Positions 1 through 4,630 of a stretch of DNA of 64,000 nt are shown here, one piece after another. This DNA is from Pleurostoma richardsiae (lineage: Eukaryota; Ascomycota; Sordariomycetes; Calosphaeriales; Pleurostomataceae). The number at the start of each line of letters is the position of its first letter. The stretch's first letter is position 1. Below the pieces are notes generated by a model. The model was not told the origin of the DNA, ran no database searches, and worked only from the letters and a program-made list of their open reading frames with translations. The stretch is taken from contig JANBVO010000003.1 of the NCBI GenBank assembly GCA_030052745.1, positions 310,001 to 374,000 on the forward strand, given 5' to 3'. Both the position numbers and the translations under genes were made by a program.

Positions 1-1413
1 AGTCTGAAGATCCCTATCGCTATAGATCTTTTGTGAGCAGACACCGTCCGTCGTTGCCGTATCCCAGAGCTTGACAGTATAGTCCCATGACGCCGCTGCA
101 AGCTGGCAGCCGTCCGGTGAGAAGACTACGGAGTTAACAATACCACCGCATCCTTCGAACGTCGCTGTACAAGTGCCCCTCATCTTTGTCGTGTCCCAGA
201 GCTTGACGGTACAGTCGTACGACGCCGACGCAAGCTGGCGGCCGTCCGGCGAGAAGGTTACGGAGTTGACGATACCGCTGTGTCCTTCAAACGTCGAGAC
301 ACAAGTGTCCGTCATCTTTGTAGTATCCCACAGCTTGACAGTATAGTCCCACGATGCCGATGCGAGCTGGCAGCCGTCCGGCGAAAAAGCTACCGAGTTG
401 ACAATGCCGCCATGTCCTTCGAACGTCGATATACAGGTGTCCTTCATCCTTGTAGTATCCCACAGCTTGACGGTAGAGTCCCATGATGCCGATGCAAGCT
501 GGTGGCCGGCCGGCGAAAAAGCTATCGAGGTGACAATGCCGCCATGTCCTTTGAATGTCGATATGCAAGTGCCTCTCATCTCTGTTATATCCCAGAGCTT
601 GATAGTACAGTCGTATGACGCCGATGCAAGTTGACGGCCGTCCGGTGAAAAAGTCACCGAGTTGATAATGCCGCTGTGTCCTTCGAATGTTAATATACAA
701 ACGCCCGTTGTTATATCCCATAGTTTGACGGTACAGTCGTATGACGCCGATGCAAGCTGGCGAGCGTCCGGCGAAAAAGCTACAGAATAGACGATGTCAC
801 CATGTCCCTCAAACGTTATCACGCAGGTGCCCGTCGTTATATCCCAGAGCTTGACGGTACGATCATGGGACGCCGATGCAAGCTGGTAGCCGTCCGGCGA
901 GAAGGATACCGAGTAGACCATGCCGCCATGTCCCTCGAATGTTATAACGCAGGTGCCCGTCGTTATATCCCAGAGCTTGACAGTACGGTCGTATGACGCA
1001 GACACAAGGTGTCTGCCATCTGGCGAGAAGGCTACCGAAGAAACACTCATGCTATGTCCTTTGAACGTAGTCACACAGTTGCCCGTCGTCGCATCCCAGA
1101 GCTTGACAGTACAGTCGGATGACGACGATGCAAGCTGGCAGCCGTCCGGCGAGAAGGCCACTGAACTGACACCACTAATATGCCCCTCGAATGTCGTGAG
1201 GCACGCGCTCCAGTCTTCTTCCATTATAGATGTCTTGACCCACTTCGGCTCTTCACTCCGGAAATACCGTCGCGTCAAACTTCGAGCCGGGCTGAAGACC
1301 AGTGCTGAAATGTAAGCCTGCAGAGGAGCGATCTCGATGGCGCATCGGTGCGAGAGCATGAAGCGCAACATATCTCGAACTAGACGGTCGAGTTGAGATC
1401 CTTGCACTCTGGT
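1..1413 (-). pseudogene. WD40-repeat half of a NACHT-WD40 (NWD/HET-E type) NLR, beyond an in-frame stop, partial
   Basis: Read on the minus strand in the same frame as the NACHT open frame at 1414-3078, the sequence continues without any stop from 1413 to the window edge. It first gives the usual linker (DLVRDMLRF-type helix, then an APLQAYISALVFSP motif, as seen before the propeller in this family) and then at least nine WD40 repeats, each with an FEGH start, an SPDG turn, an LASAS strand and a VKLWD end. The repeats start near 1205 and reach the left edge. The first four are spaced 126 nt (42 residues) and the next ones 132 nt (44 residues). No frameshift occurs across the array. In the family the repeats form the ligand-sensing propeller. 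The only break from the NACHT part is the TAG at 1414-1416. The end of the gene lies outside the window. Confidence 0.85.
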
Positions 1414-3078
1414 CTACGGCTCTGTTATCATTACTGAAGAATGAACGATTTTGGGCCCAAGACGAACCTGGAGGTAGATGCGTAGCCTTTCCACGGCAAG
1501 AACCCCCTTCCGCATCTCTCGAGTCAGGCTCAATGCTTCGAGCCAGTACAAAAACTTCTCAACAAGGAAGTTATGTACTATTCCCTTGTACTCTAAATCT
1601 TCCACGCCCATGACTTGATTGCTTGCACATGCGTCACATAGGTGGTCAACCCAGTAAACGCTTGCGTACCGTGTCGCGCTTAACGGGTCGGGCCAGGGCG
1701 GTGTGACATCTTCCACCGCGACTCCGGGGTGTGACAAGTGATACATGTCACGGTGGAGTATTCGAGAGAGCTGCTGCAGTGATTTCTGAAATATCTTGTG
1801 GTGCGTTCCTCTGATCGCATGAGGAAAGACCTCAATGAATTTGCGATTTAGCTCGGGACTACATAAGAAGTCTTTGGCTGACTGGTGGACAAAGGATACT
1901 GTACCATCTCGGATGGCCAAAAAGGAACCGCAGAGCCCGACGTAGTACTCCAAGAAGCCGTGGTCATTCGATATACCTCGTGGGCAATCGAGTAACGGGT
2001 ATAACTCTTCAAGTGTGACAGGTCGGTAGACGGTCGAGACAATAGCAAGAATTTGCATGCAGAGGCCAACGCGGTCGGTGTTGTTCATGTCACAGATCTT
2101 CAGCATCATTCGAGAGTACAGAGCATCTAGGCCACCCGGAAAGGTATGTAGTGTCATGACGGCCTCGAAGGCGGGGACCTTTGCCAGGCTTCGACAGACG
2201 AGGGCCACCCATAGGAATGTGTCCGAGGCGTGTAAAGACAGATAGTTGGCAACTTGAAGCGTAGTCTCCACGTCGTATCGTTTTCTGCTTGCTAACATTC
2301 GTACCTTTTCTTGTATGAACAGCTGGACGGCGGCAGACACCGACTTGGCGTTCAGCTCAAGGCTCAGTGGGATCTTGCGCCCAGTTTTTGCAAGCGCTTC
2401 GTTGATATCGGGCCAGTTCCGGCTAGAGACGAGCCACTTGATACGAGCTGTCGTAGAAACGATCAGATCCAGGAGCTCCGAGCGGTCCATCTGACACTCG
2501 TCAAGGGCGTCCACTACCAGAAGTAGGTTTTTCTGAGCCAGATCGCCTATGACATCCATGAATATGTCACGGACAGCGACCCATGCGTTGACACCTTCAA
2601 ATAACCCGACGCCCGCGCGGTCATATCTCTTCCGCACGTGCGAGATGAGAGACGGCTGCGTGTCGACGAGCATGTAGATCAAGCCGCGCAGCACCGCAGT
2701 CGCGCTGTTGATACGCGCATCAGTCGCCTGGCAGAAGAAGTATGACAAAATGCCGTTGTCCTTGTCTTTCTCCAGCTCGTTGACGATACCGCACAGCAGC
2801 ATTGTCTTGCCTTTGCCGGGGTCGCCCTTCACCCATAGCAACCTGTTCCGTCTGCCATGCCGCCAGCGCAGGAACTCCTTGTTGTTGAGGACCCACTGAC
2901 TCACATCGTCTAATAAGCCGCCTTTATCTCTCTCGATCCGTATCTTGTCGTGTCTAGGGTCAGTAACCCTTAGGGCCGTAAGGCATCGACCTTCCGAGTA
3001 GTAGATGTTGTTTCCAACATGGACACGAGCGCTTCCTGCAGCGTCGATATTTCTGACAGAGGTGGATATCGTCTCCAT
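1414..3078 (-). CDS. NACHT NTPase part of an NWD2-like NLR with an N-terminal amyloid motif
   Basis: Open frame of 554 residues starting at ATG 3078. Residues 8-25 (RNIDAAGSARVHVGNNI) match, without gaps, the prion-motif repeats of the HET-S-like protein encoded just upstream. A NACHT NTPase follows: P-loop GDPGKGKT at residues 85-92, Walker B LLLVVDALDEC at about 185-194, a sensor-like SSRNWPDI, then a helical region with an HQSAKDFL motif typical of fungal NACHT proteins. The frame ends at TAG 1414-1416, but the same frame continues into the WD40 array, so this looks like one NLR split by a nonsense codon. In NWD2-type receptors, ligand binding by the WD40 part drives NACHT oligomerisation, and the N-terminal motif templates amyloid folding of the HET-S partner. 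Whether this truncated form is made or active is unknown. Confidence 0.85.
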   Translation of the reverse strand: METISTSVRNIDAAGSARVHVGNNIYYSEGRCLTALRVTDPRHDKIRIERDKGGLLDDVSQWVLNNKEFLRWRHGRRNRLLWVKGDPGKGKTMLLCGIVNELEKDKDNGILSYFFCQATDARINSATAVLRGLIYMLVDTQPSLISHVRKRYDRAGVGLFEGVNAWVAVRDIFMDVIGDLAQKNLLLVVDALDECQMDRSELLDLIVSTTARIKWLVSSRNWPDINEALAKTGRKIPLSLELNAKSVSAAVQLFIQEKVRMLASRKRYDVETTLQVANYLSLHASDTFLWVALVCRSLAKVPAFEAVMTLHTFPGGLDALYSRMMLKICDMNNTDRVGLCMQILAIVSTVYRPVTLEELYPLLDCPRGISNDHGFLEYYVGLCGSFLAIRDGTVSFVHQSAKDFLCSPELNRKFIEVFPHAIRGTHHKIFQKSLQQLSRILHRDMYHLSHPGVAVEDVTPPWPDPLSATRYASVYWVDHLCDACASNQVMGVEDLEYKGIVHNFLVEKFLYWLEALSLTREMRKGVLAVERLRIYLQVRLGPKIVHSSVMITEP

Positions 3079-3772: not shown

Positions 3773-4630
3773 CTAATCGAAGATGCCCCGTCCGCCATAC
3801 TTATTTCCGATGTGGACCGCCGAATCCCCCTTGGCATCAACTCTACCAGCCGTATTTGTCGTCTCATCCGTAATGCCTACACCGTGGCCAAAGACAGCGT
3901 CCGCAAACTCGTTGCCGACTCGGACTCGCGCCTTCTCCTGAGCGTCTACTCTTCCGGCATAGTTTTTTATCACGATCTTTCGCGCTGCGACCTCGGCTAG
4001 AACGTCATCGATGCCGGCGGCAGCGTTGGAGATGGCCTTGAGACTCGGCTCGTCAACAATCCTCTCGATCTCCAGCTGGGCCAGCTGGCGACGAGCTGCT
4101 TCGACCGGGTAGATCGTCTCCAGGTCATCCACGAAGCCCGTGATCTCCTTGATCAGCCTGTCAAAGTATCTTCCCTCGTATAAAGCCCACGTCACCTTCT
4201 TCGCCAGGCTCGTCTGCTTTTGTCTCTGGCGGACCACTCTCCCGAGATGTCCATGTAGCCGCCGAAAGACCGGCTGCATGTCTTCTTCCTGATACAGCAC
4301 TAGGTCTTCCGTCGTTGCGCCCAGCTCGTAGCGCTTAGATGTCTTCTGGGCCAACCGGTACAACAGCCCAATCTCCTCGAGGATCGATTGGACCCGCTGG
4401 GTCATTGCGTCAGCCGGTGACGCCGTAGCGAACCGTGGATCGTCGTTGATGGCGACCGCAGTGCCCCACCTGCTCAGGCGTGCCTGGGCGATGTCGAGCT
4501 TCAGCCGGCATCGTTCGTAGTCTTGACCGAAGTGGCGGCCCAGCTGGATGTACTCAAAGCAGTTCACGCAGTTGTCGAAGAGAGCCGCCACGCTCAGGGC
4601 GCCAGCAACGGTACTGAAAATCTCTGCCAT
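3773..4630 (-). CDS. het-S: HET-S/HET-s-like HeLo-domain protein with C-terminal prion-forming domain
   Basis: Intronless 285-residue protein, nearly the length of Podospora HET-s/HET-S (289). Residues 1 to about 222 are a HeLo domain; GALSVAALFDNCVNCFEY at the N terminus is characteristic. Residues 221-285 form the prion-forming domain: repeat 1 (AGRVDAQEKARVRVGN) and repeat 2 (AGRVDAKGDSAVHIGN) are offset by 36 residues, the same spacing as in HET-s, and end with an aromatic loop, GGRGIFD. In the family the amyloid fold of this tail drives the HeLo domain into membranes and kills the cell; HET-s variants instead propagate as a prion. The residue at position 33, which separates the two behaviours in Podospora, is His (HET-s state), while Glu86, needed for HET-S activity, is present. 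The NLR next door carries the matching motif. Family identity is certain from the sequence; the allele behaviour is inference. Confidence 0.95.
   Translation of the reverse strand: MAEIFSTVAGALSVAALFDNCVNCFEYIQLGRHFGQDYERCRLKLDIAQARLSRWGTAVAINDDPRFATASPADAMTQRVQSILEEIGLLYRLAQKTSKRYELGATTEDLVLYQEEDMQPVFRRLHGHLGRVVRQRQKQTSLAKKVTWALYEGRYFDRLIKEITGFVDDLETIYPVEAARRQLAQLEIERIVDEPSLKAISNAAAGIDDVLAEVAARKIVIKNYAGRVDAQEKARVRVGNEFADAVFGHGVGITDETTNTAGRVDAKGDSAVHIGNKYGGRGIFD

Follow-up and report, generated by a model that had tools for sequence, protein, structure and literature searches.

Do the two neighbouring genes at the start of a 64,000-nucleotide stretch of the Pleurostoma richardsiae genome form an amyloid-signalling pair of the HET-S/NWD2 type and, if so, do their motifs set them apart from the pairs already described? 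The stretch, called the window here, is C60:310001-374000 of an assembly of 39.4 Mb in 136 contigs. One gene encodes a HET-S effector and the other an NWD2-type NOD-like receptor (NLR). The locus is read here as an orthologous HET-S/NWD2 pair, at a probability of roughly 0.88. This identity is strongly supported by the sequence of the whole effector, its predicted fold, the architecture of the NLR and the published gene organisation. The pair is a sound, if unremarkable, example of an amyloid-signalling family that has already been described, to which it probably adds a member from the Calosphaeriales. No prior publication on HET-S/NWD2 in Pleurostoma was found in the one literature collection searched.

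Identification of the gene pair

The anatomy observed comprises both genes, their domains, three copies of the motif, a predicted HeLo fold and predicted strands at the HET-s positions. As the initial annotation had described, the three motif peptides all occur, and the two genes share a strand on which the effector comes first; this is the minus strand. The NLR lies downstream of HET-S on the same strand, with 694 bp between the HET-S stop and the NLR ATG, in agreement with the spacing of about 0.7 kb given there.

The HET-S orthologue is a full-length open reading frame of 285 amino acids at 3773 to 4630 (minus strand, stop codon included). Its HeLo domain spans residues 7-200 (4031 to 4612, minus strand; PF14479, 177.4 bits against a cut-off of 23.2). 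The HET-s prion-domain family PF11558 covers residues 219-279 with 78.3 bits (cut-off 32.2) and takes in two HET-s-type amyloid repeats, both also found by a motif profile: r1 at residues 221-241 (3908 to 3970, minus strand) and r2 at residues 257-277 (3800 to 3862, minus strand). When solved structures were searched by sequence, residues 1-219 matched the HET-S HeLo domain (PDB 2wvo, E 3.4e-81) and residues 219-285 the HET-s amyloid (PDB 2kj3, E 4.4e-11). A search for effector homologues gave 233 proteins, of which the best 120, the effector itself among them, were used; HeLo and prion domain occur together in all of these but P0050. The effector has H33 and E86, as in HET-S, and N23, a position occupied by A in HET-S and by D in HET-s. 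For Podospora, the available text of PMC3531502 reports that H33P gives a HET-s-like protein and that E86K loses incompatibility and leakage activity.

The structure of the effector was predicted with 50 of the 120 homologue sequences as input. The model has a mean predicted local distance difference test (pLDDT) score of 75.3, with strands at 228-230, 235-238, 264-266 and 271-274. The first four Foldseek matches are HeLo structures of HET-S/HET-s, including 2wvn, 2wvq and 2wvo, at E 6.2e-19 or better. Since the HET-S and HET-s structures are public, the predictor may have learnt these folds.

The NLR is encoded in two parts, both on the minus strand. Exon 1 (1468 to 3078, from the open reading frame and the splice model) carries the N-terminal motif r0 at residues 4-24 (3007 to 3069) and a NACHT domain at residues 79-242 (2353 to 2844; PF05729, 51.3 bits, cut-off 26.7); NPHP3_N also matches, with 116.5 bits. 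The part of exon 2 inside the window (1 to 1413) holds nine WD40 repeats, found by domain and repeat search as a tandem array at 59-1158 with a period of 132; they are 42-44 amino acids long, with a mean pairwise identity of 68% over 40 residues. Followed along the genome contig, the NLR model extends some 315 bp past position 1 of the window. The description of the locus as a complete copy thus stands for the genome and does not hold for the window, which the end of the NLR lies outside. The peptide quoted as the start of the NLR is present, but not at its very beginning: the protein starts METISTSV, and RNIDAAG begins at residue 9. For the first 554 residues no solved structure was matched by sequence at E 0.001. 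The search for NLR homologues gave 5142 proteins, and in the best 120, which were inspected, a HET-s-type motif scoring at least 8 bits occurs within the first 60 residues of 6, own protein included.

In the 21-residue numbering of PMC4518210, with G at position 19, r1 is IKNYAGRVDAQEKARVRVGNE, r2 is TTNTAGRVDAKGDSAVHIGNK and r0 is ISTSVRNIDAAGSARVHVGNN, and the three align without gaps, as had been claimed. A motif profile was built from the r1 and r2 of homologues, leaving out the effector itself and its paralogue P0006 on contig C18. Scored against the 1898 six-frame open segments of the window of at least 20 amino acids, r1 (29.8 bits), r2 (25.9) and r0 (19.9) rank as the top three, followed by a fourth at 6.4; all three are well above background, in keeping with the initial annotation. 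The Pfam r0 family PF17108 was matched by the NLR with 26.9 bits in one search, over the cut-off of 24.3.

It could be argued that these are chance neighbours whose short likeness is unrelated, as a short motif is all that the two proteins have in common. The profile scores speak against this, as do shuffled sequences, which matched the observed similarity once in 20000 for r0-r1 and never in 20000 for r0-r2 or r1-r2. The pair also recurs in other fungi, both in print (the available text of PMC3321046) and in Fusarium falciforme. In the latter, the r0-bearing NLR P0136 (FALCPG4_014829) and the HET-S homologue P0013 (FALCPG4_014828) have consecutive locus numbers and are on equal-sized contigs, and the pairing is therefore taken to recur there. 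A chance association is accordingly given next to no weight.

Integrity of the locus

Several observations weigh against a sound orthologous pair. The effector tail is modelled with moderate to low confidence (ten-residue means of 44-75), and the HET-s amyloid models appear only at Foldseek ranks 5-7, as weak matches with E 0.11-0.30. In the other search PF17108 reached only 22.6 bits on the NLR, below its cut-off, and r0 has T in place of N at position 3. It shows no special match to its own partner, and no private fit is visible. An intact NLR would depend on a presumed intron. Finally, stacking r1 on r2 puts like charges together at positions 7 (R7/R7) and 9 (D9/D9), and charge products summed across positions 4-14 come to +1, the sole positive value among the 112 proteins that have both repeats ungapped in the best 120 of the 233 homologues.

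The last two of these points, together with relics of HET-S at other sites in the genome, would suit an orthologous locus that is decaying, either because a TAG cuts the NLR short ahead of its WD40 repeats or because the like-charged repeat stack, with its reduced charge pairing, spoils the amyloid. The TAG at 1414-1416 is indeed in frame with the WD40 part. It is, however, removed by a presumed GT..AG intron of 54 nt (1414 to 1467, minus strand) that joins the two NLR parts in frame. Other GT/AG pairs are possible, but the identical splice is found in P0122, a database entry for this protein, which differs only at the last residues, where its last exon ends elsewhere. Since P0122 shares this intron, the NLR was judged less likely to be a pseudogene. 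No stop interrupts the HET-S gene or either of the two NLR parts, and the Walker-type NACHT domain and the nine WD40 repeats are intact. Decay is therefore regarded as distinctly unlikely, and the orthologous pair remains the preferred reading.

The repeats themselves are unusual. Among the 112 pairs, r1 and r2 are identical at 10 of 19 positions, against a mean of 5.3, and no other pair reaches 10. Positions 5-10 read AGRVDA in both. Of the positions tabulated, opposite charges are found only at 13 (K/D). R7 might be paired with D9 along the same face of the strand. Recent gene conversion between the repeats was considered and is unlikely, since the codons differ for five of the six AGRVDA residues and r2 has GCT and GTT in common with the r2 of the C18 paralogue; r2 would instead have acquired its residues 6 and 7 by substitution. 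The repeats are thus a natural variant with almost no charge pairing between them, which could be used to probe the importance of salt bridges for the fold.

Specificity of the motifs

The initial annotation had also suggested that the motif variant may define a separate specificity class, with its own code and no cross-talk with other HET-s motifs. The AGRVDA segment could be seen in this way, being matched at 6 of 6 positions where no other of the 112 pairs exceeds 3, and so could the Arg or Lys at position 7 of both repeats, which is found in this one protein of the 112. The available text of PMC4518210 assigns the subclasses of HET-s-related amyloid motif (HRAM) by N at position 3 for the canonical HRAM1, Q for HRAM2 and H for HRAM3, with Q at 18 or 16 marking HRAM4 and HRAM5. 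Position 3 is N and position 16 is V in both r1 and r2, and position 18 is V in r1 and I in r2; r0 has T3, V16 and V18. None of the three carries a marker of HRAM2 to HRAM5, be it Q or H at position 3 or Q at 16 or at 18. The five other r0 motifs among the best 120 NLR homologues have N3 in four cases and T3 in one (P0125). When each repeat was compared column by column with 109 distinct other sequences, every residue was found in other HET-S proteins except I1 of r1. R7 is rare, with 3 of 109 for r1 and 2 of 109 for r2, and A at position 15 of r2 is present in 48 of 109. Judged by their residues, the motifs fit canonical HRAM1, because r1 and r2 have N3, lack Q at 16 and 18 and, apart from I1 of r1, are made up of residues that recur in other HET-S proteins.

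The NLR motif points the same way, as r0 shares neither G6 nor R7. It was ranked against 118 r1 and 114 r2 sequences, gapped rows having been removed (2 of 120 for r1 and 6 of 120 for r2). The score of r0 against its own r1 is 35, which is equalled or exceeded in 34 of the 118 (own counted), and against its own r2 it is 44, equalled or exceeded in 16 of the 114 (own counted). Against the repeats of the C18 HET-S the scores are 37 for r1 and 44 for r2, so that r0 fits this paralogue as well as it fits its neighbour. A separate class is thus very improbable, and that part of the initial annotation is not upheld.

Related loci elsewhere in the genome

The second full-length HET-S gene is on contig C18 (L020 4598-5566) and is 65% identical to that of the window; its HeLo open reading frame contains 323 residues of P0006, 'Heterokaryon incompatibility protein S [Pleurostoma richardsiae]'. 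This contig has 19034 bases, and no NLR was seen within bases 1-18900. A search of the genome with PF17108 found five places, the C60 NLR being the only one to exceed the cut-off. That there is one r0 NLR in the genome refers to the canonical type detected by PF17108, and N-termini were examined at 5 of the 34 places with NLR paralogues, plus contig C45. The closest paralogue, on contig C56, is 57% identical and matches from query residue 20 onwards, its N-terminal part being different.

On contig C45 (L024), a HeLo protein at 4334-5182 (minus strand) carries a pair of HET-s-like repeats that are more distant. Divergent from it, an NLR runs from about 5800 (plus strand), and its presumed start, MTGNQYAGIRLEGHSIHGIQLGNN, resembles the r0 of a different subclass. 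Further HeLo domains are found at L023 (contig C65) and L022 (C60:1951001-1960900). On C65, a weak NACHT-type match comes after an open frame of 1079 amino acids that has a HeLo match, and the two may be a HeLo-NLR in one piece.

Two presumed two-exon open reading frames may offer r0 a different setting. They are at C18:13203-13547 (L020 4203-4547) and C124:19580-19975 (L021 4980-5375), 96 and 113 amino acids respectively, each with a 54-nt intron. Both start MASNT and contain QVHASGNSRVHIG, followed by two CCHC-like zinc knuckles, and neither has a NACHT domain. The first knuckle of the C124 copy has P in place of H, and a third copy on contig C134 (L032) is broken. The C18 frame runs towards the 3' end of the second HET-S gene. 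Its protein stays below the cut-offs of PF11558 (21.4 bits, cut-off 32.2), PF17108 (19.2, cut-off 24.3) and zf-CCHC (15.3, cut-off 20.8), and the best knuckle model for exon 2 of the C124 copy gives 14.6 bits, below its cut-off of 27.

In favour of real genes are the two open frames, with about 70-80% DNA identity between C18 and C124, and the non-synonymous and synonymous divergence (dN/dS), which is 0.29/0.81 by one method and from 0.29/0.65 to 0.29/0.86 by others. Against this, conservation of the intron (74%) and the 5' flank (69%) matches that of exon 2 (69%), with exon 1 at 82%; a search elsewhere gave one candidate but no relative at E up to 10; and the C124 and C134 copies have nearby fragments that resemble the r2 of HET-S, the one on C124 being weak (E 0.87). 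A search of the species' own genome gave seven matches, comprising the two C18 exons, C134, C124, the HET-S r2 region of C60, C73 and C126; the last two are weak, the C73 match (E 0.01) having one stop inside and that on C126 an E of 0.5. These r0-like frames should be seen as a lead, not as a result. It is possible, if rather doubtful, that the single canonical-r0 NLR serves both the C60 and the C18 HET-S and that the zinc-knuckle proteins are a third kind of partner. A HET-s motif joined to CCHC zinc knuckles was not found in the literature collection searched and, if the genes were real, the motif would have a kind of partner not found in print.

Proposed mechanism

Signalling by the pair would begin with a ligand binding the WD40 domain, upon which the NACHT domain would oligomerise. 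The r0 motifs clustered in this way would fold into a beta-solenoid, which would template r1 and r2 in the HET-S tail. The HeLo domain would then unfold, free its N-terminal hydrophobic helix and permeabilise the membrane of its own cell. In Podospora, the N-terminal motif of NWD2 is described as templating the HET-s fold under ligand control (in the available text of PMC4344463), and HET-S as exposing a transmembrane segment with leakage of membranes (likewise, PMC3531502). Judged by its anatomy, the Pleurostoma pair fits each step of the Podospora mechanism.

Comparison with known systems

The effector resembles Podospora anserina HET-S/HET-s (2wvo, 2wvn, 2wvq, 2kj3, 2rnm) over its full length in having a HeLo domain and a two-repeat prion domain. 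It agrees with HET-S in H33, E86 and an aromatic and di-glycine tail end, and differs in N23, in the AGRVDA common to both repeats and in having charges of the same sign in r1 and r2 at positions 7 and 9.

The NLR has the single N-terminal r0, the NACHT domain, the WD40 repeats and the het-S neighbour of P. anserina NWD2 and its homologues, as far as these are described in the available text of PMC3321046 and PMC4344463. The P. anserina genes are divergent, whereas here both are on the same strand with the effector upstream, and r0 has T at position 3. HET-S/NWD2 pairs in various fungi are reported in either arrangement, divergent or in the same direction, in the available text of PMC3321046.

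Compared with the HRAM1 group, as characterised in the available text of PMC4518210, N3 of r1 and r2, the hydrophobic residues at 8, 16 and 18 and G19 are alike, and r0 is again closer to r2 (44) than to r1 (35). The differences are the A at position 15 of r2 and the charges, which among the charge-complementarity positions 4, 6, 7, 11, 12 and 13 are opposite only at 13. Two or three HRAM subclasses may coexist in one species, according to the available text of PMC9815663, and the pair described here belongs, by its residues, with the canonical one.

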